Shown piece after piece: positions 7,152-51,229 of a DNA stretch of 64,000 nucleotides. Position numbers and translations under genes: made by a program. How positions within the stretch are numbered: position 1 is the first letter of the stretch; every line of letters starts with the position of its first letter. Below the pieces are notes generated by a model, which saw nothing but the letters and a program-made list of their open reading frames with translations, ran no database searches and was not told the origin of the DNA. This DNA comes from Dicyema japonicum. Taxonomy: Eukaryota; Dicyemida; Rhombozoa; Dicyemidae. The DNA lies in NCBI GenBank assembly GCA_011109175.1, contig RDEW01000038.1, positions 367,155 to 431,154 of the forward strand. Reading direction: 5' to 3'.

Positions 7152-8158
7152 CTAATCTGTTAGGGAATCACCAACCGACCAGTACAAGTGGGAGCACTTG
7201 TAGCAGTATATCAGATAGACGGGATAGGTGTCTTCCAGTTTACTGAATAACTCAACATAGCTCAGTCTCCAGTTTATTTTCGAGTCTTCGACCACTTGGA
7301 TTTCTTCTAAGGAGTCATTCCTTATTTTTTCGTAGATCAGAAATCTCCAGATGACCTCCCCCGACAATATCCTATAGAATAACTTGCACGCGCGTCGAAT
7401 ATTGTCCAGATCGTCAGGATCTTCAACGTACTTTAATATGTTAAAGACAATATTCAAAGGGAGATCGTCAAAGAAACTGAAATGTCTTCTATCCCCCATG
7501 GCCACCTCAGAGTAATGTTATGAACAACTTTATCGACGAAAGAGCGCGTCGCCCTGCAGGCCAATTCATGTTGAGACCAAAGCATCGAGGACCCCACGCA
7601 CTCTTTGCGATTCTCGAGGACCAATTTGGCTGTCCTCAGGAGATCCCTGACAATCCGAACATTGTGTCTTAAATAAAGGACCAAATATAATCATCAAATA
7701 CTTCTTTTAGAAAAACTGGACAAAATCAGAAACAGTTTCTTCTGACTGTATCCCCCAAGTTGATTGCAGTTTTCAAGCAGAATTTTGATAATCTGAGTTT
7801 TAAAACCGAAAACCCTAGAAATGTAAAGCAGCATCTGAAAGTCGGCGCCAATGTAGCTTATTTCGATAAAGTTAATCAGGTCGTCTATATTTGTCCTGAT
7901 TTTGACTTCTGAGGAGAATTTACGCCTGTAAAATAAATTGGACATTTTTCTGAGTCCAATAGGAATGATATTTTCGTTTATAAATGATTTTTCGCAAATT
8001 CTGGTGGGTTTTAACACTTTTAACCTCTCAAATAATTTGCTCTCGAGGTCTTTAACGATTATACTTCTAATGTATTTTCTTTCGGTCCAACCATAATTTA
8101 ATTTGATATATGCGTCATCCTCAAAGAAGAACATTTTGTATTTGCTGTTAATTAACAT
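7152..8158 (-). CDS. FBXO25/FBXO32 (atrogin-1)-like F-box protein with short introns
   Basis: The product would be the substrate-recognition subunit of an SCF ubiquitin ligase. Starting at ATG 8158, three exon frames follow the order of FBXO25/32. First is a helical N-terminal region (LLENCNQLGGYSQKKLFLIL), then HNVRIVRDLLRTAKLVL (compare NIR-IRELLQTL in the family). An F-box follows near residues 200-250 (FDDLPLNIVFNILKYV ... RACKLFYRILSGEVIWR), and then a short C-terminus with INWRLSYVELFSKL and CYKCSHLYW, matching DWKKMYFKL and CKHCHILSW of the family. A 29-nt GT...AG intron at 7505-7477 fuses the middle frame directly onto the F-box. The first junction is less clear: two in-frame TGA codons near 7694 can be removed by a GT...AG intron of 54 nt (7721-7668), giving 307 codons overall. 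A 34-nt candidate there leaves the frame off by one. The family assignment is firm; the exact first intron is not. Confidence 0.75.
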
Positions 8159-10075: not shown

Positions 10076-11844
10076 ATGTCTTGTTTGTATTGTGATACAT
10101 TTGGTAATGATCCAAAATGTACTCATGACCAGTCAGAAGTTCTCATAAGAATAAAAAACGACTGGGAACTTCGTGAGGCAGTCCGAATAACCAAAAAATT
10201 GTACTTTTCCCAATAAACATAGAACTCTCAAAAAAGCCCTGGATAGATACTACGGCAATGATCCCCTCGCAATCTGGCTTAGGTTATCGATATACTTATT
10301 ATTAGTTACTTGGAAGAAGTTAAGGGTTTCCTCACTCCAAATGAAATCTTCGATGAGTTGAGAGATTGCATAACAGACTTCATGCGCTATTCTGAGTGGT
10401 TGAGGGACACTAGATTTATCGATTTGTGCATTTCCTACGTTTCTTGTTATTTCTATTTCAGGCCACCAGAGAGAGACACTTGTTTGTACTCAACAGACTC
10501 GGTGTAGGCACGGACAGCGGTAAGTTTTATATTTGTTGGGCCCGATTGTGCGAGGTTGAGAAAAAGACTGAAATGGCGGAGATTGTTTTCAGACAGGGCT
10601 TGAATTCCATGGATCGGCCAATAAAGGAATTAAAGGACGAATTTAACGAGTTTCTGGCTAGAAAAAGGGCTCAGAATGTGCACACCAAAACCGCAAAGCT
10701 ACAATTTGACCTGAAGTTGACCAAGAAATTCAACACCGATTGTTTTGAAGAATTGAATTACATAATGAACTTCAAATCTTCTGTCCCCCATAGTATAAGG
10801 CGCTTAAAGTCTGTTAAAATTCAGAAAAACTGTTTTGACGTCTTCCTTTTGCGTGATAATACCTCATTTGAAGAGAACGCATCAATGCATCACATCGATC
10901 AGAATTTTGATTATATTTTCGCGGTTTTTGTTTAAATTTGAATTTCAGGTTACCAAAGGAATGCGTCCGGCGACGTGGTGGCCTTTCAAAAACGGGAAAT
11001 ACCGGTTTGTGAAAACTATCATGCGTGATCCCCTTTTTTTCAAAGTGGAGTCTGCTAATGGTCACGTGGGGTCTGCTGTGGTGAGCTGTTGGTTGTATTG
11101 GCAGATTTTTTTTGAAAGGAGTTTGCTGAAGCAGTTTAGAATCACTCAGAAAATAAAGGCTGAGTTGGGGGAGAATAACCCCTTTCAGAGCTTCCACAGT
11201 GTCTTTGCCTTGAAGAACGCTTATTTTCTGGTGGGGGATGACGTGAAATATTTGGGAAGACTGTCGGTTTGGTATGTCTTCATTCCAGGACTTGGTGGTT
11301 AGACTGCAACTGGTTAATGAGCCCGCCATAAGCGTGTTTCTGGCTTCCCATCTGATCAGACTTATAGTGACATTGCATTCAATTGGGGTTGTTCACGGAA
11401 ATATCCACGTGGGATGTTTTTTGGTCTCTACCCTGTTAGGCTGATGTCTTATTAAAGGCCAGTGTCTGCTGACGGTTTCAACTTTGACTCCCAAATACTG
11501 AAACTGTGTGACTTTAGAGGGGCTGTGGACGACGGAAATGGGGATTTTAAGGTAGATGGGTTGTCTTATTATGGTGGGACTACCGAGGAGTGATGACTGT
11601 GATTAGGTCTCTGTTCGGGGCTGAGGATGGAAGATTTGCAGAGTTGTTGCTATTTGGTAGTTTAGTGTGGGCTGGAATCTTGGGTGGATTGATGATATTT
11701 TTGAGGAAATGGAATGGGGTTCCCGATGTGGTTGAGAAGACCTTGAAAGTATGGGAACGCAATTTTATGGTTTTATTCAGTGGCAAATACCGTTGTTCCC
11801 TCTTGTCTGAGATTGGGAAGATTGTAATGACCATTAATAATTAA
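10076..11844 (+). CDS. BUB1/BUBR1 (Mad3)-like spindle-checkpoint protein with eight very short introns
   Basis: Removing GT...AG segments at 10201-10222, 10283-10305, 10439-10461, 10924-10948, 11081-11104, 11267-11288, 11435-11457 and 11590-11606 (22, 23, 23, 25, 24, 22, 23, 17 nt) gives one frame of 529 codons. The N-terminal TPR-type BUB1/Mad3 domain spans about residues 29-175: DWELRE, YYGNDPLAIW near residue 51, LGVGTDSGKFYICWARL near 119, and the following helix IVFRQGLNSM. A kinase-like domain follows: FFKVES with a candidate ATP-site lysine near residue 292, ALKNAYFLVGDD, VVHGNIH near 394 and KLCDFRG near 425. The HxD aspartate is replaced by Asn and DFG reads DFR, so it looks like a pseudokinase, as in BUBR1. 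No KEN box is visible after WEL. It would act at kinetochores and in Cdc20 inhibition. The last (17-nt) intron is the least certain; a 44-nt alternative starting upstream also keeps frame. The protein is short compared with vertebrate homologues (about 1,000 residues). Confidence 0.8.
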
Positions 11845-12513: not shown

Positions 12514-15435
12514 ATGTTACTCGAAAAGTCATCGTCTAATTGCTCTGCCTGCAAGATGAGCAATTTGAGAAAGTTTGAAATTTCTTGTTCTGCCTGTGGA
12601 GTCTTCTTTCACCTCGGGTGTTTGAAGTTCTCTCAGGCCTCTATCCGTGCTCTTGGGGTATGGCACTGCCGCTCGTGCCTTGGAATTGGTTCGGGGTTTC
12701 CTAATGGTCACGCGAGTGCATGTACCTCCGGGGAAGACCTTTCCCATTTGGATCCAGATTCGCTGCTCAAAATTATCAATGAACGCCGGTCATCGAGGAG
12801 TATCCCGGTGAAGATCCCTAAAGCAGCCCGCCCCCTAGCTGTCGAAGGCTTAACCAAAGCAATCGACGATGCACTCCGCTCCGACTCTATAAACGACTGG
12901 ATACGTTTGTTTAATTTTGCTCCTTTCGCTCTTGGCTCCTCAGAGATCGCAATGGGAAGAGTCTCTCTCGATTGAGATGAAGAACAACATCCGCGCATTT
13001 ATGGATGGAACTCACTTTACGGACCTCACGTCCTTCTGCATCCGTTCAACTGAGACTCGGAGTTCAACTCGGGAAACGGAGATTCTTCGCCTAAGAAGAC
13101 CGTACGATCGAAGTTGCTTGAAGGAGGAACCCGATCCGCATTGAAGGCCCTCTCACTCTCAGATGGACCACGCAATCCAACCATTGATACTTACAAGACG
13201 CTATTGGGGAAACATCCACCCTCTCCGAATGACCTACGCCATTGCTCGCCCCCATCAGAAGCGACCCCTTTGACCACGTCGCCTGAGGATGTCATCACGG
13301 CGTTATGGAACTTTGCACCAAGTAGCTGTGGAGGTCTCGATGGCTTAAGGCCCGGCCATCTTAAAGACCTTATTTCACCGACTATTGGAGACCAAGCAAG
13401 TCGTCTTTCATACTCACTCACTTCTCTTATGAACAGGATATTATCTGGACATTTGCCTGATTTGATACGTCATATCTTGTTTTCGGCTAGTCTGATTGCC
13501 GTCGACAAAAGGGAGGTGGAATCCGCCCGATCGCGGTCGGATTCACTTTCAGAAGACTAGCAGCCAAGATTGCTTCCAGATTTTCTACGTCAATCTTGTC
13601 AAAATCCTTACTTCCCAGTCAAGTTGGAGTCGGAGTTCGTCTTGGATGTGAGGCAGCCGTTCACTCCGTCAGAAGATTCAGGAACAGCAGCATTCAAGAC
13701 TTTAAAAGGCACATTATGGTAAAACTGGACATCAAGAACGCTTTTAACAGCTTAAGAAGAGACTGCATTCTGGAGGCCTGCAAGGAAAGATGTCCGTACA
13801 TATTTGAACTGGTCAATTATTCATACGGAAAACCTTCATCACTATTGCACGGGGATTTCATAGTTCCATCGTCCTCAGGTGTTCAACAGGGCGACCCCCT
13901 CGGACCACTGCTGTTCTCCCTCGGCATTGAGAGGATCACGAAGCTCTCTAGATGCCCACTCAACATCTGGTACCTCGATGACGCTGTCTTAGGAGGTCCC
14001 CCGGAAACGGTCTTCCAGGACTTAGAAGTACTCATCCCGCGCTGTCCGAGGTGGGTCTTCAGTTGAATATAACGAAATGTGAAATAACAAACTGTGGTCT
14101 TGCTGACGATGACTTCTCTTCAATTGTTCAAAAATTTTACTCCTTGTTTCCGGTGGGATTTCGACCCCTGAAAATGAATTGATTTTTCTTGGATCCCCGA
14201 TCACTAGTAATGCGATGAAGCATGTCCTCCTTGACAAAAAACGACTCCTATGCGATTCGCTGGAAAGATTACAGCTGCTGGACTTGCACACAGCACTATT
14301 CCTATTGAAAAGAAGTCTCAACATCCAGAGAATCTCCTATCTACTAAGGACAGCTCCATATTATTCTCAACTGGAGCTGCTCGAGAATTTTGATTTGTCT
14401 CTCCTCAGCTCGACGGAGCAAATATTTAATGTCCGATTCGACGATGATACATGGATGCAGGCTACACTCCCAGTTAGATTCGGGGGTCTTGGAATCCGTC
14501 GAACTTTGGACGTCTCACTTCCCGCTCATTTATCATCACTCACGGCCTGCGAACCTTTGGTCAGGAGGATTCTACACTCCCCACCCGAATTCTCAACTGA
14601 CCAAGAGATAATCCACGCACGAGAAGCCTGGAATGCCACCAACCTCCCCCTGCCTCCTTCCCAAGATCGCCAGCGAAACCTGGACAACTTATTATGCTGG
14701 AAATCATTTGGACTCCTACTGGAATCTGCCAATCAGCACCGACGCGCTTGTTTGCTTTCGGGGGCTTCCCCTGAGAGCGGAGCTTGGCTAAACGCCATCC
14801 CCAATGGAGCTTTGGGCACTTTTCTGGATGATGAATGCGTTAGAACTGGTATCTCTCTGCGGCTGGGACTAAAAGTATGTGTACCTCACCCGTGCCGATG
14901 TGGCATCCTGATAGACTGCTATGGCCTGCACCCTCTCACCTGCAGGAGGAGCGCTGGCAGATCCCCAAGGCACAAGGCTCTGAATGAAATTGTCAGGCGA
15001 GCTATGGATGCTGCTGGATACTCGGCCATTCTTGAACCGGTCGGGTTATGCAGAAGTGACGGAAAACGACCGGACGGGATGACCATATTTCCATTTGAGG
15101 CCGGGAAACCACTGGTTTGGGATGTGACATGTACAGACACGTTCGCCCAGAAAAACCTTCACGAGAGTGCTACAAGGGCCTGCTCAGGATCCGTAAAGGC
15201 GGAGAAGACCAAACTCGTTAAATACGTCGACCTTCCCGATAATGTCAAATTTGTTCCCCTTGCTATGGAGACTTCCGGATCCTACTCCCCCTCTACACTC
15301 GAGTTTTTAGGACGTCTTGGAAACCGGATCACCTCATGCACTGGAGATCTCCGCGAACGCCGCTGGCTATTTGAGCGAATTTCGCTCGCAATTTTGAGAG
15401 GGAACAGCCACGCGGTGAGGGCGGCAACTACCTGA
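12514..15435 (+). pseudogene. RLE retrotransposon polyprotein: zinc finger, reverse transcriptase, zinc knuckle, endonuclease
   Basis: Four successive frames make up one protein split by frameshifts. 12514-12975 holds a PHD-like finger (CSACK ... ISCSACGVFFHLGC ... WHCRSC) and the IPVKIPKAARPLA motif. 13114-13560 starts the RT (SSCGGLDGLRPGHLKDL). 13596-14066 has the palm: GVGVRLGCEAAVHS, KLDIKNAFNSLRRDC, SSGVQQGDPLGPLLFSL and the catalytic box YLDDAVLGG. 14179-15435 (418 codons) is the thumb, then CRCG ... HPLTCRRSAGR, then the RLE: DGKRPDGMTIFPFEAGKPLV followed by WDVTCTDT, with the RPD ... WDVT catalytic pattern. It ends SLAILRGNSHAVRAATT, a tag that recurs in 3' stubs elsewhere. Frameshifts near 12960, 13520 and 14060 show decay. 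Confidence 0.85.
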
Positions 15436-18475: not shown

Positions 18476-19096
18476 NNNNNNNNNNNNNNNNNNNNNNNNN
18501 NNNNNNNNNNNNNNNNNNNNNNNNNNNNNNNNNNNNNNNNNNNNNNNNNNNNNNNNNNNNNNNNNNNNNNNNNNNNNNNNNNNNNNNNNNNNNNNNNNNN
18601 NNNNNNNNNNNNNNNNNNNNNNNNNNNNNNNNNNNNNNNNNNNNNNNNNNNNNNNNNNNNNNNNNNNNNNNNNNNNNNNNNNNNNNNNNNNNNNNNNNNN
18701 NNNNNNNNNNNNNNNNNNNNNNNNNNNNNNNNNNNNNNNNNNNNNNNNNNNNNNNNNNNNNNNNNNNNNNNNNNNNNNNNNNNNNNNNNNNNNNNNNNNN
18801 NNNNNNNNNNNNNNNNNNNNNNNNNNNNNNNNNNNNNNNNNNNNNNNNNNNNNNNNNNNNNNNNNNNNNNNNNNNNNNNNNNNNNNNNNNNNNNNNNNNN
18901 NNNNNNNNNNNNNNNNNNNNNNNNNNNNNNNNNNNNNNNNNNNNNNNNNNNNNNNNNNNNNNNNNNNNNNNNNNNNNNNNNNNNNNNNNNNNNNNNNNNN
19001 NNNNNNNNNNNNNNNNNNNNNNNNNNNNNNNNNNNNNNNNNNNNNNNNNNNNNNNNNNNNNNNNNNNNNNNNNNNNNNNNNNNNNNNNNNNNNNNN
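18476..19096. other. Assembly gap (621 N)
   Basis: Continuous N. Frames reported across it are meaningless. Left of it is a Tigger N-terminus; right of it is an unrelated RLE 3' stub, so the gap spans at least one element boundary. Confidence 0.99.
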
Positions 19097-19619: not shown

Positions 19620-20312
19620 AGAGTTTGTGGGACCGCTCTACTGTGTTATAAAACGTAAAATTTAAATCTTCAGATGCTAGTGGAGTCATCGGACTTAATT
19701 CCAAGCCTCTGTCTTAAAACACTTCCAAGATCCTAACGACAACAGAAAATCCTAATTGCAGCCAACCTACCAAGCAGTCCAGTATAAAATCCCTCTTAGA
19801 TACCTGAAGAACTCCCAAAATATGGGTTGATGCTATTCCTATGAGAGAGCATCACAGGACGTTTATCCCCGTCGAATTTTGCCTTCTTGTGGATCTGAGA
19901 TCATATAGTTATCTGAGGACATTTTTCTTTCAATCCATCAATCTTGGAGCTAAAAGGTCCATCAGTTCGTCCATGCTCAAGAGGAAGACATAAGTAGATA
20001 TTCAATGCAATAGAGCCACGTCATTAACTCAACCTTACGGCCAATTAACCATTCGACTGACTGATTATGAGATTTGTCATTGACTGGTTTTAACAGACGT
20101 GTTATGTAAATCAATGACAAAAATTGAACTGTTAGATTCGTAAAAGTAAACATTTCGTGGTTTTTGGAGTTGTGCAACAGAAATAACATGGACGTGTCGA
20201 TTCATGAAATTATTCGCTGAAAACTAGCGCACCTAATTACGATGGCAAAACTTCCAGCAGAGAAAATAAATAATGTTATTTTCCGCGTTTATTTAATTAA
20301 GGAAAATTCAGA
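19620..20312. other. Spacer upstream of the TGF-beta gene
   Basis: No gene or transposon motif recognised. The last 100 bp before ATG 20313 are AT-rich and presumably hold the promoter. Confidence 0.4.
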
Positions 20313-21104
20313 ATGATTGCTGTTCTCATAATTTTTTTGGTTTCCCTCCAACAAAACGACACAGAGTTTATCAGTCTTCAGAAACTACAAATTCTTAGCC
20401 AATTGGGACTTGCAGAACCACCAACAAACAATCATTTGTTCCTACAAGAACTCAAAAAGAGCTTTTCCACAAATCAAATCATCCACCAAAAATCAGTCAA
20501 TAGCACTGAATTTGGGAGAAGCTTTTTGTTTGAAATAATCAACCACCGTTTTGACAAACTCTTCATTGATTACACCGTTTTTGACAAATGCAGATATAAA
20601 AATATTATGGAAATTGACTTCAAAATGCTCAGACTGAAGAATTTTGTTAGACGGGACACGTGGAATTTGACTGTGCATATCAGAATGGAAGAGATATCCG
20701 AGATAATGATTCTGAATTTGACTTTTAGCAAGAAAATCGAGGTTTTATTATGAATTAAACTCCAGAACGTCTCTTTGAGATTTGCGGAGGGAAAAGAGAT
20801 CAGTAAAAGATCACCAAACTGCTTCGGGTGCTGCCTTAAAAGTCGCTTGGTTAAGTTTTCTGATATGGGCTGGGACTGGATTCTGTCACCAACCTCCTAC
20901 TGGGCTCAAGAGTGCAGCGGGAAATGTTCTGGAAGCAATGTTCAACAGCAGCCACCTCTTCACGTGTACCTGAGAATCCTAAATAACAACGCATGCTGTG
21001 TTCCCGTGGAGTTTGATGATGTAACGATCGTCTATTTGCAGTCAAATAAAATTCTAATGAAGGATTTAAAATACTTGAATGCCAAAAAATGTCAATGTGC
21101 TTAA
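20313..21104 (+). CDS. Secreted TGF-beta superfamily ligand (myostatin/activin-like)
   Basis: A 24-nt intron (20742-20765, GT...AG, containing an in-frame stop) separates two exons. Joined, they give 255 residues. Residues 1-15 form a hydrophobic signal peptide (MIAVLIIFLVSLQQ), then a short prodomain of about 140 residues. A dibasic KR at 157-158 (ISKRSPNCFGCC) is the likely processing site. The mature region has the cystine-knot pattern CFGCC ... FSDMGWDWILSPTSYWAQEC, SGKC, ... NNACCVPVEF ... IVYL ... KKCQCA. GWDWI-SP--Y-A--CSGKC is closest to the myostatin/GDF11/activin group. The ligand would signal through type I/II serine kinase receptors and SMADs. The prodomain and the loop between CSGKC and ACCVP are short for the family. 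Start chosen because the signal peptide begins there. Confidence 0.85.
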
Positions 21105-24684: not shown

Positions 24685-25435
24685 CTAAATAGAGGACTGG
24701 TTGGCGGAACTGTTGTTCATAATAGTCTGAGCTTTTCTGACTACACTCTGAGCCATCTGCCTAACACGTTGAATCTTCTTCTCCACTTCCTCCCGTTGAA
24801 ACTCAATAAACTCAGTGCTATCTCGAAGGATCTTCAACCTTGTGGCTTTTTCGACTTCTTTAGTACGTGGAACAGCCAATCTGAGTTTCTCCATAAGGTT
24901 TGTTATGGCCCTTCTTCGTTGCTGCTCCTTGACGTTGTGGTCTGAACGACGCTCAACTTCTGTGCTGTAAAAGTCGCCACAAACACCCAGATCGTCATAA
25001 AAGTTCATCTTAATGTCTGGTTGAGTCTCAAGAAGCATAGTCTTTCGACCAGAGGGTAGTTGACTGGACAGGGTAAGTTTCTCGGCGGCTAAACATAAGT
25101 CAAATTCAAATAAATTAAATGATAAATTGAGCATAAAATGTACCTGAGGGAGACATTTTGGTATTAATGTTCTTGGTGGGTATTATTATGGGTTTCAGGT
25201 CCTCACATTTGAACTTTTTAGAGGGCTGAAGGGTGAAATCATCATTGGACATAGTAGAGAAGCCGAATGGGGGACTGTACATATCGTCGAACAGACCATT
25301 AAATTCATTAAAGGAATAATTAGGCCACTCATATTCATAATTATTAAAGTCTAGAGTAGGCTCTGTCTTCAAAAAGTCTGGTTCCAACAATTGGCCGTGA
25401 ACATCCAAGGCACTATCGAAATCCCAGACTGACAT
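24685..25435 (-). CDS. Myc-like bHLH-leucine zipper transcription factor
   Basis: Two exons joined across a 55-nt GT...AG intron (25143-25089) give 231 residues from ATG 25435. The C-terminal bHLH occupies about residues 144-191: RRSDHNVKEQQRRR is the basic region, with His148, Glu152 and Arg156 in the H-E-R arrangement that reads CACGTG E-boxes. NLMEKLRLAVP is helix 1, and EKATRLKILRDSTEFI is helix 2 (compare EKAPKVVILKKATAYI in Myc). A weak coiled coil follows (EEVEKKIQRVRQMAQ). The acidic N-terminus (EPDFLKTEPTLDFNNYEYEW, FDDMYSPPFGF) resembles a transactivation domain with a Myc-box-like patch. Myc proteins dimerise with Max; no Max is seen in this window. At 231 residues it is about half vertebrate Myc length. 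It could instead be another E-box bHLHZip, but HNV-E--RR and EKA favour Myc. Confidence 0.7.
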
Positions 25436-26765
25436 ATGTAAATTGCAAACGCAAACCAGATAGCGCAAAAAACGCTTTAAATACGAAAATTTTCCGCTCT
25501 TCTGACGTCAACATATCAAACGGTGGTGATACCGTCTGCCAAAATCAGCAGATTGTTGGACAATCGATCTCCAAAGTGATTAGTTGTACTCCAGAATATC
25601 TGTCTAACCGCCAAGTTAGCTGTGGTTAGAACTTTAAGATTCGATGGAGTTCCCGCCAAAACATTCTTTGATGGTTGGATTATTTTAATCTTTTGGCTCA
25701 AAATTAATCTTTTTAATTACTTGTGTTTAATAGCAGTCGTTACTTGGCAATTGTGAGATTTTTATCAAAGCAATTAGTTTTAGCATTTAAAGTTATGTGC
25801 GGTTAAATTCTTTCACTCAGACTATTTAAATATTTCGGCACAAAACAATTATTATTTTTCTATAACCGAAAAATAATTTTTCAACCCTTAAATTATTAAT
25901 TTACCATGGGGATAATATTTCACTTTTTTGTTGATTAAAGGGCATGATGCTGTCATCCTTCGTGGATTGGCTTACGTCAAAGAGCCTTACAAACCGCACT
26001 TTTGTGTGTAAAGCCTTGAAGTTTCCGAAATGAAAGCCATTACCGACTCAATTCGACTTTGGTAATTCAAGTGGATTTGATGTCTCAAACTGGCGGTTTT
26101 TACCAACCTTGGTAGTTAAGGGTGATACATGGCTGACGTCCTGATCTTATATCAAACTGGAAGAGCAATAGAGTTTGATTATTCACTTTTTCCAATTTAT
26201 GCTAATCACTTCCTCAAGTTATGTAAGATCTTAATTAGCACTTTAAAATAATTCTGACGAGGCTTGAAATGAGATTGAATTATCACTAAATAATTATAAT
26301 TTATCAACTAAATGCTAATAACTAATGAAAATTTATTAATAATTTTAAGTGATTTTCTTGATTAAAATATTTTTCCATTTGTCTCAAAAGACCCATTTAC
26401 AATTTTGAAGACCAAAAGTATTATAAATTTATTAAAACATGGCGTGTCTAGAATTTGATAGCCTCTTGTTTGTTTCCTTTACTTACAATCACTGGGAACT
26501 TACCTTTTTTTCTTCTGCTAAGATCCCAAAAGAGTTCTAATCTCCTCAATCGGGTCGGTGTGAGCTGATTAGGCGACTGAATCTGAATTTTTGGTCAAAT
26601 TGGATCGTCTTAAAATAATTTCTGGTCATTCAATCGATCCCTTATGTTTGTAGCGGAAATTGTTGCTGTCATTGAGATCTTTAAAAAAGATCTGACAATA
26701 GGTCCCACTAGAGACAATAATTACTTTTGACAATTATTCATACTGTTGATTCAATTGCTCATCAA
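25436..26765. other. Intergenic upstream of the Myc-like gene
   Basis: A TATTTAAAG sequence on the minus strand about 40 bp upstream of ATG 25435 could be a core promoter element. An open frame at 25516-25701 (-) has no recognisable domain. 26060-26105 is the second copy of the short dispersed repeat at 24390-24435. Confidence 0.4.
26060..26105 (+). repeat. Dispersed short repeat, copy 2
   Basis: GTAATTCAAGTGGATTTGAT followed by GTCTCAAACTGGCGGTTTTT, matching 24390-24435 in direct orientation. Confidence 0.6.
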
Positions 26766-37200: not shown

Positions 37201-38352
37201 AGAAATCACGAAAAAGAGGATAGAGTTATTGTCTAATTAAGTGATCCCGGAGTCCATACCAGTCCTTTTCCTGCGGTTTTTTTACCCCAAGATCACCGGA
37301 TTAGAAAAAGTTCTAGATAGTCAGATATAGAGTGAAAGCGGACAGCCGGTTTTTATTGCCCACTGTAGAAATGACTTCACTCTCCACCTTAGGTGTTCTT
37401 TAACATTCAATACGTTATCCACAGTTTTCTTATTTATTATTTTCAAGGCAGCAAGTTGTGCGGCTTCTAATTTTTGAGACGACGATTCAGAAATCATCGA
37501 GCTCCAGGAGGGACATGCGTATTCGATTACTGGCAGTATGTATTGTCTGTAAATTTTCTGTAGTAAGAAGGTGTTGTGCCCGATTGGTGATCGGGACAAA
37601 ATTTTCAATATGTTGGTCCTCCTCCTGACTTTGGTAATAACGTCATTGACATGTTGGCCGAATGTCAGGAGAGTATCCAACTTTAATCCTAGTATTGTTG
37701 GAGACTTATAGGAATTTCATATCCAAACAATTTGATTTTGGGAGAGTATAATGATCTTCTATATGTAGAGAAAATTGTTATAAACGACTTTCCTGTAGAA
37801 ACTTCCAGTCGATTTGATGTGAGCCAATGTTCCAGCATACTAATATAACTTTGAAGTTTTATCCCTGTCTTCTCATAGTTAGCGTCTCTCGTGAAAGAAC
37901 AATGTCATCTGCGTATGAGAGTATTAATGTATCGGGATCGTGTTGGTGGGAAGGTCATTGGTGTACAGGTTAAGAGCAGGGGAGAGAGAGGTGAACCTTG
38001 AGGGACACCATTCGGCAATAAACGGGATTTAGATTTTCTGTTGTCTGACATCACTTGTCCTCTTCTTCCACTTAAAAAGTTCGACAGCCATCTTTTAATG
38101 TTTGGATTTATAAGAGTGTTAGAAATTTTCTCTATAAGCAGCGTCCGGGAAACGGAGTCGAATGCTTTCTTCAAGTCTATTGAAGCCATTATGGTCCTTT
38201 TATGTGGTTTTGGATAAGAGAATCCATCAGATATATATTGATTTAATTTTGTTAAGTGAGTCGTAGTAGAATGATTTTCACCGAATCCATGCTGGAATAC
38301 TCGATTTGGTACAATATTTTTCATTCGTGTTAAAAATAATTCCGTGTTACAC

Positions 38353-38385
38353 ATTCTATCGTGTTACATTTTGACCTTGAAATTT
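38353..38385 (+). repeat. Ginger-type left terminal inverted repeat
   Basis: 33 bp starting ATTCTATCGTGTTACATTTT, an exact inverse of 40002-40034. Further inward, ACACCAATCAACCTTGATATT is again matched near 39970-39992 with one change, so the inverted repeat is at least 55 bp with a small gap. Confidence 0.85.
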
Positions 38386-38749: not shown

Positions 38750-39967
38750 TTAACGAATTACTCTAATTAGGGATTTTAGCACTTCTTTTTCTTGTTCATT
38801 TTTAATTCTAATTTTGTTTTCCGATATTATTTCCTCAACCGTAAAGGGTCCTATTGTGACCAAATTTAAAAAACCTTCATAAAATGAATTCAATTTCATT
38901 TTTTTATATTTTGGATCGTTATTAAAGTCTTTCGCTACTAAGACCGAATCTCCAATTTCCATTGATCCATTATTTAAATTTCGTTTTCTTTTCATTCTCT
39001 GATAATACTGTTCATTGTTAATTTCAACATCTAAAATAAAAATGTTTTCTATATACCTTCTTTGATTTTATTTCACAGTCATCCTCATTATTCAAACTTG
39101 ATAGTTCTTCCTCATTATCCTTATCCATATCTAAACATTATAAAGTCACTATAGACAATTGAATCGAGGCTCGTAGACCATTTGTGATTTCCTTTTACAA
39201 ATAGTCTTTTTTGTAACCAACGCGTTAACGTTTGGTTACACCTTTCAACTTGACCCTGTGATTGAGGGTGCCTTGGGCGACTAAACTTCTGTAAAACGTT
39301 GCATTCTTGGCATAATGAAGGAACTATTTCATTTTTGAATTCTTTTCCGTTGTCTGATTGTAATATTTGAGGAGGTCCAAAATTATAAAAAATGTTTATT
39401 TTTTAAATAGAAGCAATTAGAAATGCTTCTTTCGAATTAGTAGCTCGGGCAAAGCAAAATTTTGAATAAATATCAATTACGTTAAAAATATATTTGAGAC
39501 CATGATTTTCCTCAGACCATCGACTCAAATCTACCATATCCATTTGATAGCGCTCTCTTGGAGCTTTCGCTTTAATGTTTATTAAAAAAATATGTGCTTT
39601 TAGCGACTGACTTTGTGCACACGCCATTCAGCACAAACTTTTCGGATGATAGATCTCTTAATAGTAAAAAAATAGTTGTCAGAGTATTCTTTCATTTTGT
39701 TTACTCCATAATGCGTTTTCAAATGTAAATTCAGACTTCATAGTTTCCAAATCATCTTGAGCAATTACAATTTTTTGTTCCATCATTGGTTATTAGCCTA
39801 GAGTCTTCTAGTAAGAAACATTTTGTCTTATTTAGAAATCGGGACTTCTTCATTCCAGTTAAACTTCCATCAATCTTATTGTTTTCCAAATAAGCAACAA
39901 TATTTTTGTACTCTTCAATAGTTAGTACTAAATTTTTAAGTAGCATTTTTGATAAAAACGGCAACAT
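38750..39967 (-). pseudogene. Ginger-type integrase/transposase
   Basis: Minus strand. 39967-39752 is an N-terminal region (IEEYKNIVAYLENNKIDGSL). 39627-39403 starts the RNase-H-fold core with the first catalytic Asp in ERYQMDMVDLSRW and FNVIDIYSKFCFAR. After an in-frame TAA, the core continues FGPPQILQSDNGKEFKNE (second Asp) and HPQSQGQVERCNQTLTRWLQ (catalytic Glu). 38995-38750 is the C-terminal SH3-like tail (VGDSVLVAKDF-type, FYEGFLNLVTIGPFTVEEI). D, D and E are all present. One stop at about 39415 and another near 39125 break the frame; whether short introns account for them I cannot show. Confidence 0.75.
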
Positions 39968-42063: not shown

Positions 42064-43394
42064 ATGAAAATTATTGCAATTCTTTGTTTCGGTCTCTTAG
42101 GCCTTTGTCTAGACAATGGACTCGCTCTCGTGCCTCCGAAGGGTTGGCTAAGTTGGCAATACATAAGATGTAATACAAACTGCACAGACAATCCCGACGG
42201 ATGCTTAAAGTATATGCTGTATATTTAGTTAAGCGAAAACCTGATAAAAAGAACAGCCGATTATATGGTCAGGACAGGATTGAGAGACTCGGGGTACGAA
42301 TATATCGTTATTGATGACTGCTGGATGAGCAAAACTCGGGACGCCAAGGGAATATTAGTACCCGATCCCGAACGATTCCCCAGCGGAATCAAAACCCTGA
42401 CAGACTACGTACTTGTGTTAAAAAATTCAGGTCCATAAAAAAGGACTCAAATTCGGTATCTACGCTGACATGGGATTGAAGACCTGCCAACAATATCCCG
42501 GATCTCTTTTATACCTACAAATAGACGCATCCACCTTTGCCAACTGGGGAGTGGATTACCTTAAAATGGACGGATGTTATGGAGGAACTAAACTATACGA
42601 TGTCGGTAGTGCCTTTTCATTACTGAAGGGTACCCCCTGATGAGTTTCTATCTCAACCAAACTGGAAGACCCATTCTGTTCTCCTGTAGTTGGCCAGACT
42701 ATGAGGGGAATGTAAGACTTGGTTTATATGTTAGCCAAATTACGTCAACGTGGCCAAATACTGCAATATTTGGAGGAATGCTGCGGACATTCAGGATTCA
42801 TGGACATCGTTGGTCGGCATAATTGAGGACTATGGGGAGAATAAGGGGGATTTCTTGAAAATGTCAGGACCGGGGCATTTCAATGACCCTGATATGGTAA
42901 ATAACTATTACTAACATTCATAGCTTCTCGTGGGAGCCTTTGGTCTCAGTTACGAAGCCCAGAGGACTCAGATGATTATGTGGGCCATGCTGGCGGCTCC
43001 CTTGATGATTTCCAATGATGTGGCTCTTCTGGACCCTAAATTGGTGGCTCTACTTAGGAACAGATACATCCTAAACTTGAATAATGACCCACTAGGCAAA
43101 TCAGCTGTTCTCTATGAGAAAGTACGAGTTTATGGTAATTGACAGAAAGGCACAACACGTGTCTGGTTCAGAGAATTGAGCAATGGAAGATTTGCTTTTT
43201 CCTTTTTAAGTTTTTCCACAGCTGCAAACTATTATCACTACACAACAAGACTAACCACCCCCAATAATGTTCGCTACGTTGTCCATGAATTAACCACCAA
43301 CATAAAATTCGCGGAAATTAATAACGGAGATTACTTCACAGCGACTCTCGCTCCATACGGCACGTGTGCCATAGTGTTAGTGCCGATAGAATAG
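42064..43394 (+). CDS. GH27 alpha-galactosidase / alpha-N-acetylgalactosaminidase, secreted or lysosomal
   Basis: Six GT...AG introns of 24, 22, 23, 23, 27 and 24 nt (42210-42233, 42409-42430, 42606-42628, 42712-42734, 42897-42923, 43122-43145) resolve every frame break and leave exactly 395 codons plus stop. Residues 1-21 are a signal peptide ([20 protein letters not shown]). Family motifs in order: [51 protein letters not shown] with nucleophile Asp154, [25 protein letters not shown] with acid/base Asp213, and [17 protein letters not shown]. It would remove terminal alpha-Gal or alpha-GalNAc from glycans. The specificity loop has Ser186 where human GLA has Glu and NAGA has Ser, and Asp189 where GLA has Leu and NAGA has Ala, so it leans to the NAGA side. 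All catalytic residues are intact, unlike the surrounding transposons. Start chosen for the signal peptide. Confidence 0.92.
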
Positions 43395-44339: not shown

Positions 44340-45945
44340 AGACCCTCCCCAGAGAGAAAAGTCGTAGTCTACATAAAACCAGACACTCTGATAAAATATT
44401 ACACATCTATATCCTACAGGAAGTTTTCAAAAGAACACCAAGTATTCCTGAAAAAGATTGAACCGAAACGCTCCGATGACTGGATCCTATTTATTAGTCA
44501 GATGTTCGCAGAGCCATATCTAAGGCCAACAACTCAGAGGCCAAAGGACCAGACAACATAACCACATGTGAACTGAAGCACCTAGGCCATCGAGCTCTGG
44601 AACTATTAGCCTATATCATCAACCTATCCATTAACACAAATACAATCCCTGAAATATGGAAGAAGTCTCTAATCAGACCTATCCGAAAACCCAACAAACC
44701 AATAGATGAACCATCTTCCTATCGCCCAATATCCATTCTAAGTCCGGTCTCAAGAATCCTTGAAAGGCTTGTTTTGGAAAAAATACAAGACTCAATCCCA
44801 ATACCTCCGACCCAGCACGGATTCCGGGACAACCATTCGACAACAACACACCTTACAACCCTCACACAATTCATTGCGGAAGGATTTAACTTTCCCAAAC
44901 CACATCAGAAGACAGTACTTATATCCGTGGACATCACAAAAGCGTTTGACTCAGTCCCAGGAAACTCCTAACAAAAAAAATATACGAAACCAACATCCAT
45001 CTGAACCTGAAACTTTGGCTTGGAAACTTCTTAAATGGAAGACGAGCACAAGTACTCTGCAACAACATCAAATCAAGATCTCGCTATTTCCCAAATGGAG
45101 TCCCTCAAGGCTCCCACTATCACCCCAACTCTTCAATCTCTACATAAACGACATGCCACAAACCTGTAATGAAAACTGTCTAACCCTCTCCTATGCCGAC
45201 GATATCATTCTTGCTCCAAGAACAGAAGCATTCAATCAGCGACTCAGTTGGCTCAACAAATGCTCGACAACTTGGAACTATGGCTCTCGAAGCGGAGACT
45301 TGACACATCAGCAGCAAAGTCCTTTGTCACACTGTTTACCACCTACAAGAGACAGCTCTGTATCGAACCAAAAGTCTTTATGAAGAACGAAGCTATCTCT
45401 ATTAACAAAACACGAAGATTCTGGGAGTAACCTTTGATCAGGGACTCACCTTTATCCGGCATGTTGAAAACAGAGTAACTTCTGCTGTGAAAAAATGAGA
45501 ATTTTAAAAGTGCTCTCAAAAACACTTAGAGATCAAACTGGGATCCTTGCCACGATTTACAAACAATTTATCCGACCAACGATGACGTATGCAAGTCCTT
45601 CATGGGCAATACAAATGTCACGATCTTCCACATTGAAATTTTCTGCAATCGAGGAGACAGCAATAAGGTTAATTGGACCAGATCACAATATCCAACCTAT
45701 TGAAAACTTTTTAATTGAACTACAACGGAAACTATTAAAGGAGGCTGTTCTACCAAGCTGCCCTCTATTCCAAATACTATCGAATTATCTACAATCATAC
45801 AGAAATTTGAGCCGATGCCATGTCCAATGAGAAGAGCTGTTTAGGATTCTCGACCTCGCCGGACTCGTCCTCACCTTTGTCGGTCTGGGATCACTTAGTT
45901 AGATGATAACTTTTATTTCTTTCTCTTTGACCCAGTGATCCTGGG
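44340..45945 (+). mobile_element. Family A non-LTR retrotransposon, 5'-truncated
   Basis: Frames in order: linker AEGPDNITTCELKHLGH-type sequence near 44540, SSYRPISILSPVSRILERL near 44715, HGFRDNHSTTTHLTTLTQF, LISVDITKAFDSVP, NGVPQGSHYHP-type region near 45100, SYADDIILAPRTEAF near 45190, and a thumb at 45495-45830 (IYKQFIRPTMTYASPSWAI). The 3' end reads CTGGGATCACTTAGTTAG, then ATCCTGGGGG and a (TAA)n run at 45948-45967. Multiple frame breaks. Confidence 0.75.
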
Positions 45946-49740: not shown

Positions 49741-51229
49741 ATTATTTCATAAGTTTCTGATATCGTTGTTTTGTCCTCTGTGTCAACTCCATTATAAAAC
49801 TCGCAACTCTTGACTAGATCTTCGTTTTCTTCAGATATTACTTCAGTTACTATTTCTTCCAGGAGTTCTTCCCCAAAATTTTTATCTTCAACTGATTCTT
49901 CTCTATTTTCCTCAATTTTCTTCCAACAATTAATTATTGTTGTTTCTTTAACTTCCATCCACGCTTTTTTAACAAGTACCATAATCTGTCGCATATTTTT
50001 CAAAGATTTAAGATTAATTGTTGTATCTTCCAAATTGAGCATAAAATCCATTAGGAAGTTTATGTACTTTAAAACACTTTATTATACCAATGTCTAAAGG
50101 TTGAATCAAAGATGTTGTTTTTTTCGAAAGAAAAAACAATTTAACATTTGAGTATTCCAATAAATAATGGCATTTAGCATTATCCATTATTAAAAGTATT
50201 TTTCTATCTTGTGAGAGAAAGTCGTCGTTAATCTTTGAAAGCCACATTTTGAAAATTTCTTTATTCATCCAGGAATTTTTTGACGCTGCATATAAAATAC
50301 CGAATTTTTCACAATCTATGTTAAAATATAATTAAGCAAACTTTTCATACAACTAAGTGATTTGTATTTTCCAATAACAAGGGGTCTTAATTTATTTCCT
50401 GATGCATTACAGCAAAGGAGAAATGTTACTCTTTACTGAATTTTGTACCATGACATGTTTCTATAGATTCGACATAAGATCTTGAAGGAAATTTTTATAC
50501 AAAGATGTTTCATCACAGTTAAAAATATTTTCATGACCATAAGTTTTCAACAAATTATCGAATTGAAAGAAAAAATTTGCCAAATTACTTTTATCTGCTG
50601 AATTTTTTTCACCACAAATGGTTTTAAAAACCAGATCATGTCTCTTCTTAAATCTGTCTAACCAACCGTTTGAGGCTTTAAAAGATGTTGAATAATTCAA
50701 TTTTGTGTTTTTTCGCGATGGCTTTGATTAAAGTACCCGAAATATAAGGAATCATCCCTCAAACGACGAAAAGCATTAAAAGTTAATTCGTCAAGTTTTT
50801 CAAATTGATTGACTTCATTAGAAACTGGTTCAACTTCATCTATTTGAACTAATCTTGAAATGACTGATCCGGTATTAATGAAAGAAGAAATGTTTTTTTT
50901 GATTCGGGAAATAGTGCCTTTGCTTATCTTGAATTTTTGGCAACTTCTCTTTCAGAAGAAGTTTGTAGACACTTTGCAAGTTTAATTTTTGTTTCAATAG
51001 AAATTTTGGAAGACATTACACAAAGACAATTATCACGTGTTCAAAAATAATATTATTCAAAATAATATTATGTAATAAAATATTAAAATATTTAGTAAAG
51101 TGCCCCATACTGGGGTTTTGATAATTTCCAAATTTGGAAATTATTGATGGAAAATGTACTAAAAAATAAAATCGCCCCAAAAAGTGAGGGTGCCCAAGAC
51201 GGGGGTTTTATTGGGGCGGGGTTCGACTG
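49741..51229 (-). mobile_element. pogo/Tigger DNA transposon, left end missing
   Basis: The right end is a TIR, reverse-complemented CAGTCGAACCCCGCCCCAAT, preceded by TA and inverse to 18131. From ATG 51016 (-), the product starts SSKISIETKIKLAKCLQTSS and KISKGTISRIKKN (psq/CENP-B HTH), continues SNGWLDRFKKRHDLVFKTIC (CENP-B DNA-binding) and FNCDETSLY, then KILLIMDNAKCHYLLEYSNV and TTSLIQPLDIGIIKCFK (DDE core), and ends in a C-terminal acidic tail. Frameshifts near 50930, 50700, 50340 and 50040 break it. No left TIR precedes the family A 3' end at 49620. Confidence 0.8.

Follow-up and report, generated by a model that had tools for sequence, protein, structure and literature searches.

Six introns of 22-27 nt in a dicyemid GH27 gene at the intron sites of human GLA

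The GH27 gene at positions 42064-43394 of the window (the whole stretch of 64,000 nucleotides analysed here) is interrupted by six segments of 24, 22, 23, 23, 27 and 24 nt, each of which (6/6) has GT...AG ends and lies at the position and in the phase of an intron of human GLA. The preliminary description had proposed that removal of these segments yields a 395-codon frame, and this is confirmed to the base: the gene without them is 1188 nt long, which makes 395 codons and a stop with a remainder of 0. We put the probability at about 0.93 that the segments are U2-type introns which come from an animal ancestor common to vertebrates, still occupy the GLA sites and have eroded to 22-27 nt. Dicyemid mini-introns have already been published (Ogino et al. 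reportedly described short introns in 2010) and the phenomenon is therefore not new. What the GH27 gene adds is a clean and checkable case of ancestral animal introns that have become as short as those of ciliates and yet stayed in place.

The GH27 gene and the intron sites of human GLA

Alignment of the 395-residue protein to GH27, a check that the preliminary description had proposed, gave a match to the Pfam Melibiase_2 profile over residues 24-302 (5.9e-115), which covers positions 2-284 of the 284 in the profile. The best relatives of solved structure are chicken NAGA (2.2e-115), human GLA and human NAGA, and the identity to the 120 best homologues listed is 37-60%. D154 and D211, which we take to be the two catalytic aspartates of the enzyme, fall in columns that are invariant in eight aligned sequences. 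The product is a predicted secreted or lysosomal alpha-galactosidase or alpha-N-acetylgalactosaminidase with both catalytic aspartates present. The likeness to human GLA and NAGA extends to the six junctions and their phases (GLA), the 162-nt exon 5 and both catalytic Asp residues. The gene has TAG as its stop, and the PRP8 gene of the same assembly aligns throughout under the standard code.

In the HMMER alignment to GLA, the first three junctions of the gene fall at GLA codons 65 (phase 2), 123|124 (phase 0) and 183 (phase 1), and the remaining three, all in phase 0, at 213|214, 267|268 and 333|334. For this numbering we assume that the mature GLA protein begins at residue 32. The register is consistent with the Gly183, Lys213|Pro214 and Met267|Leu268 given in papers on Fabry disease, which are also the source of the human junctions in Table 1; for the sixth of these the printed part is the start of the exon at c.1000 (PMC10432374, PMC11431720). 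Position and phase are equal to those of human GLA in 6/6 junctions, the sixth being compared by its c.1000 side only, and exon lengths of 175 (c.195-369), 162 and 198 nt (c.802-999) are identical in the two genes. The chance that six random junctions among 1187 positions would match six given sites is about 2.6e-16. This agreement of sites and phases indicates that the introns predate the split from the vertebrate lineage and are not insertions. In length, however, the human introns far exceed those of the window gene, the published values for GLA being 217 nt for intron 5 and more than 1222 nt for intron 1.

Table 1. Exons and introns of the GH27 gene and other features located in this study. 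Positions without a prefix are those of the window; prefixed positions are those of the assembly.
Feature	Location	Strand	Details
GH27 exon 1	42064..42209	+	146 nt; start codon; signal-peptide-like N-terminus (by eye)
GH27 intron 1	42210..42233	+	24 nt, phase 2; site of human GLA c.194/195
GH27 exon 2	42234..42408	+	175 nt
GH27 intron 2	42409..42430	+	22 nt, phase 0; site of GLA c.369/370
GH27 exon 3	42431..42605	+	175 nt; motif LKMDGCY (residues 151-157)
GH27 intron 3	42606..42628	+	23 nt, phase 1; site of GLA c.547/548
GH27 exon 4	42629..42711	+	83 nt
GH27 intron 4	42712..42734	+	23 nt, phase 0; site of GLA c.639/640 (Lys213|Pro214)
GH27 exon 5	42735..42896	+	162 nt; motif NAADIQDSW (residues 208-216)
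GH27 intron 5	42897..42923	+	27 nt, phase 0; site of GLA c.801/802 (Met267|Leu268); TACTAAC at 42909-42915
GH27 exon 6	42924..43121	+	198 nt
GH27 intron 6	43122..43145	+	24 nt, phase 0; site of GLA c.999/1000 (printed source: c.1000 side only)
GH27 exon 7	43146..43394	+	ends in stop codon TAG
TGF-beta family ligand gene	20301-21102	+	Pfam 1.1e-19; 24-nt intron at 20742-20765 by open-frame chaining
SMAP-type ArfGAP gene (L051)	G000:C137:645850-646200	-	candidate AT-AC intron of 48 or 57 nt
Geranylgeranyl pyrophosphate synthase (GGPS) gene (L053)	C148:742900-743270	-	candidate AT-AC intron of 52 nt
Phospholipase C (PLC) gene (L050)	C126:181300-181650	+	candidate AT-AC intron of 58 nt
U12 snRNA (L047)	G000:C68:163471-163599	-	single match, 85.4 bits, cut-off 53

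The same six introns were recovered by a spliced protein-to-DNA alignment script of our own, which admits GT-AG introns of 14-400 nt, charges the same penalty whatever their length and hence does not favour short ones. Guided by chicken NAGA, it yielded exactly these six introns with zero frameshift. When all 256 pairs of donor and acceptor dinucleotides were tried on the gene with introns of 14-120 nt, GT-AG came out on top with a score of 858, and the runner-up reached 822. This lead is real and not huge, and the decisive evidence is therefore the set of intron sites held in common with human GLA. The scores also bear on the reading of the segments as insertions into a gene that has decayed to a pseudogene, or as assembly errors, with GT and AG ends by chance: it gains from the fact that short pieces bounded by other dinucleotides regain much of the alignment score, and loses by the coincidence of 6/6 segments with human GLA junctions and phases.

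A different reading is that the segments are cut from the DNA rather than from the RNA. The short internal eliminated sequences of ciliates are likewise tiny, AT-rich and about 25 nt long, and the segments of the GH27 gene recall them; the abundance of circular contigs that Zverkov et al. report for an assembly of Dicyema could point the same way. DNA elimination would, however, have to contend with GT-AG ends at ancestral intron positions and phases, and with the cloning of both genomic DNA and cDNA in Dicyema acuticephalum, which gave, for 7 genes, 16 introns of 26.2 +/- 1.9 nt within the coding sequence (PMC2222250). We judge it most improbable that the segments are of this kind, and take them in the following as spliceosomal introns.

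Intron size in other genes of the assembly

Three further places in the assembly searched (64.67 Mb, 191 contigs) have scored GH27 matches. In one of them, the paralogue L011, guided spliced alignment found 6/6 introns, of 24, 23, 24, 22, 22 and 24 nt, with the phase order and residues of the window gene save that the alignment puts the fifth one residue away. The two proteins are identical at 126/369 aligned residues, and their intron sequences differ. The other two places carry frame breaks: L010 (C148:1702500-1705500) has introns of 23, 26, 22 and 26 nt, an apparent 36-nt third and 4 one-base frame skips, and L009 (C94:376500-379800) has introns of 26, 22 and 26 nt and 6 one-base frame skips. 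In neither copy did the guided alignment call an intron 6, and the introns that it did call are near-identical between the two.

With human PRP8 as guide, 25 introns were called in the PRP8 gene (L032), all of 20-26 nt with a median of 23 (one of 20, six of 22, six of 23, nine of 24, two of 25 and one of 26 nt). The protein is identical to human PRP8 at 1375/1597 aligned residues; the alignment contains 4 frame skips and passes over 11 residues. Across the window GH27 gene, L011 and PRP8, 37/37 counted introns measure 20-27 nt, with gene medians of 23-23.5, and an intron mode well above 30 nt, which the preliminary description had named as a refutation if seen genome-wide, is absent in the genes tested. 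Not in this count are the TGF-beta intron, every intron of L009 and L010, and the segments that chaining gave in the F-box and helix-loop-helix genes (see below). Also left out is a probable 26th intron of PRP8 (2713-2735 of the reversed locus), which open-frame chaining gave and guided alignment did not.

These genes bear further on the reading by pseudogene decay or assembly error. The frame breaks of L009 and L010 are what it would lead one to expect; yet L011 repeats all six sites with different intron sequence, and a gene as conserved as PRP8 has 25 introns of like size. We give that reading hardly any credence. Miniature spliceosomal introns in an animal of the dicyemid type, as first read from the letters, are thus upheld by the GLA sites (6/6), by their repetition in L011 and by PRP8 (25/25). 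An origin in some other lineage whose mini-introns arose by convergence seems unlikely: the GLA intron sites, the TGF-beta ligand, the standard code and the intron size suit a dicyemid, a combination not known from any other animal, although none of the named entries among the 120 best homologues listed belongs to one.

Comparable introns are on record. Those previously described in dicyemids (Aruga 2007; Lu 2019; Zverkov 2019) are alike in being short and in conserving animal positions (Zic, Pax6); they are described as having no branch signature, and no branch consensus emerges here. The median in Dicyema sp. is 27 bp, with about two thirds of the introns <30 bp (PMC6543705), and the mean in the Dicyema japonicum genome (67.5 Mb assembled, about 65 Mb estimated, 36.7% GC) is 38.2 bp (PMC6736024). 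Compared with these published introns, those of the three genes counted here are slightly shorter, and one gene has each of its six sites in common with human GLA. For the orthonectid Intoshia linei a median of 57 bp is given (PMC6543705). The introns of Paramecium are also alike in their median of 24-25 nt and their weak signals (PMC12862383, PMC2483917), Paramecium bursaria having a median of 24 nt (PMC12862383); Paramecium is, however, an unrelated ciliate and its mini-introns are convergent.

Elsewhere in the window, open-frame chaining placed a 24-nt intron in a gene for a TGF-beta family ligand (Table 1), and suggested, for the F-box and helix-loop-helix genes, candidate segments that measure 17-54 nt. 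TGF-beta ligands are known only from animals. The helix-loop-helix gene lies at 24688-25507 on the minus strand, appears Myc-like by eye and matches Pfam HLH over 24688-25182; the F-box gene lies at 7155-7517 (minus), and a weak Mad3/BUB1 homology region below the Pfam cut-off at 10414-10932 (plus). The window further contains a DDE_1 transposase at 50017-50331 and an integrase core below the cut-off at 39124-39402 (both Pfam, minus), pieces that by eye resemble LINE-type reverse transcriptase in many frames (13491-14063, 37908-38363, 44498-45380 and others), and a run of N at 18476-19096, which is either a gap or masked sequence. A model-free scan for GT-AG segments between open frames, over 234 kb that included 22,874 N bases, detected no clear excess at 20-30 nt over control dinucleotides; hence, the intron size is claimed for the genes tested and not for the whole genome.

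Splice signals and the proposed removal of mini-introns

The 37 introns carry little information at their donor sites beyond GT, namely about 1 bit at +3 and at most 0.6 bit at each of +4 to +8. Their G+C differs strongly by gene, being 12% in the PRP8 introns and 30-35% in the GH27 introns. An in-frame stop occurs in 14/15 introns of length 3n versus 13/22 of the others (Fisher p 0.028), an enrichment that is only suggestive because the alignment could miss stop-free introns of length 3n.

No branch consensus emerged from the 37 introns of the window GH27 gene, L011 and PRP8. TACTAAC is found in 1/37, at 42909-42915 in GH27 intron 5 (p 0.027 in shuffles of that intron), CTAAY in 1/37 versus 0.60 expected in shuffled interiors, and the loose TRAY in 22/37 versus 16.6 in shuffles (p 0.049). 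The TACTAAC noticed in intron 5 at the outset is thus present, but its usual branch A, at 42914, is 9 nt and not 13 nt away from the 3' end. As a general feature of these introns the branch point is not supported, with TACTAAC seen once and CTAAY not above shuffles. The scarce branch signal agrees with Irimia and Roy (2008), who describe dicyemid introns as having no branch signature and the weakest donor score known (PMC2483917).

Among the splicing components searched for, U2 snRNA gave 25 matches, 22 of them over the cut-off, and its branch-pairing GTAGTA is intact in 6/6 loci read. Pieces resembling U2AF65 lie in order at C114:219969-221071; all of them stay below the family cut-off, and the profile gives matches in 2/14 control genomes as well. 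The RED_N match scores 64.3 bits over positions 67-114 of the 234 in the profile, and the assembly has six G-patch matches. In humans, spliceosomes need about 46-50 nt from the 5' splice site to the branch (PMC11291888, PMC6692369), Smu1/RED ease the constraint on short introns in extracts (PMC6692369), and a subset of short introns is reported to use SPF45 in place of U2AF. Smu1 and RBM17 are reported to be retained in ciliates with short introns (PMC12862383).

We propose that the six U2-type introns were inherited from an animal ancestor common to vertebrates and kept at their GLA positions, that in the line leading to this genome each has worn down to 22-27 nt, and that the major spliceosome probably removes them from the pre-mRNA. 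The splice-site information available to it amounts to little beyond GT(A/T)...AG within AT-rich sequence, and U2 snRNA keeps its ordinary branch-pairing sequence although no branch consensus emerged from the introns. As the branch A would lie at most about 20 nt from the 5' splice site, against 46-50 nt in human, U1 and U2 could hardly be together on one intron in the human way. We think that assembly may be sequential, with transfer of the 5' splice site to U6 preceding or accompanying the docking of U2; alternatively, help may come across the short exons. RED, the partner of Smu1 needed for human short introns, might be retained as part of this assembly step. With the 5' splice site and the branch within about 20 nt, far below the human minimum, these introns constitute a natural experiment on what a spliceosome needs.

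Candidate U12-type introns beside mini-introns

A minor spliceosome seems to have been kept in this genome of mini-introns, as judged from its sequence. The single U12 snRNA match (Table 1) has GTAAGGA in its 5' end, so that the branch-recognition sequence is intact. The consensus of U12-type introns consists of a ATATCCTT donor, a TTCCTTAAC branch site and an AC end. We searched for patterns with perfect consensus sites only, gaps being allowed down to zero, and examined all of the 19 distinct places that fit; three of the 19 join the frames of known proteins by a candidate AT-AC intron. These three resemble known U12-type introns in donor, branch and AC end alike, and the GTAAGGA of the U12 snRNA completes the likeness. 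The counts of the patterns versus a control read backwards were 9 vs 4, 12 vs 4, 7 vs 16 and 2 vs 8. Not being consistently above the control, they prove nothing, and the claim rests on the three places.

In the ArfGAP gene, the 48-nt version of the intron gives an alignment to SMAP1B that is gapless across the junction (36.8 bits) and the 57-nt version one with a three-residue gap (35.1 bits), slightly different pieces being aligned in the two cases; the Pfam ArfGap score is 21.8 bits for 48 nt versus 23.0 bits for 57 nt. The spliced GGPS frame is gapless to GGPS over 73 residues. Splicing of the PLC gene at 58 nt fits the PLC frame and gives a PI-PLC-Y match of 2.1e-22 across the junction, with single alignments patchy upstream of it; a junction at 50 nt, also tried, gave no family match. 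For 14 of the other 16 places, no joined frame was obtained from an AT or a GT donor. L052 (GT-AG, 51 nt) has a joined frame without a family match, its unspliced frame being open too, and L055 (AT-AC, 34 nt, with U12-type motifs; G000:C2:64200-64520, minus) has a frame that is open both spliced and unspliced and likewise no family match. A text search found no literature joining dicyemids with minor introns, and the U12 passages of PMC2483917, the only dicyemid paper among the matches listed, are not about dicyemids. A U12 snRNA together with three putative AT-AC U12-type introns in a genome of the dicyemid type is thus possibly new.

In these three introns the branch A lies at nt 41 (ArfGAP), 45 (GGPS) and 43 (PLC) from the 5' splice site, a spacing that by itself exceeds the whole of the U2-type introns here (20-27 nt). 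We tentatively suggest, at somewhat less than even odds, that the two spliceosomes have different floors, of 20-27 nt in total for U2-type introns and of about 50-58 nt, with a nearly constant 41-45 nt to the branch A, for U12-type introns, and that the cause lies in the grip of U11/U12 as a unit as against no simultaneous presence of U1 and U2. Donor and branch are bound jointly by the U11/U12 di-snRNP but separately by U1 and U2 (PMC3584512), which would explain a fixed floor of minor introns. L055, if a real intron, would speak against two such floors. Mini U2-type introns beside minor introns of about 50-58 nt allow one to ask, in the same cell and the same genome, which component of the machinery is limiting.

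The distance from the branch A to the 3' end is 7 nt in GGPS, 7 or 16 nt in ArfGAP and 15 nt in PLC, and the branch A of the GGPS intron is thus closer to the 3' end than the optimum of 11-13 nt that the review gives for U12-type introns (PMC3584512).
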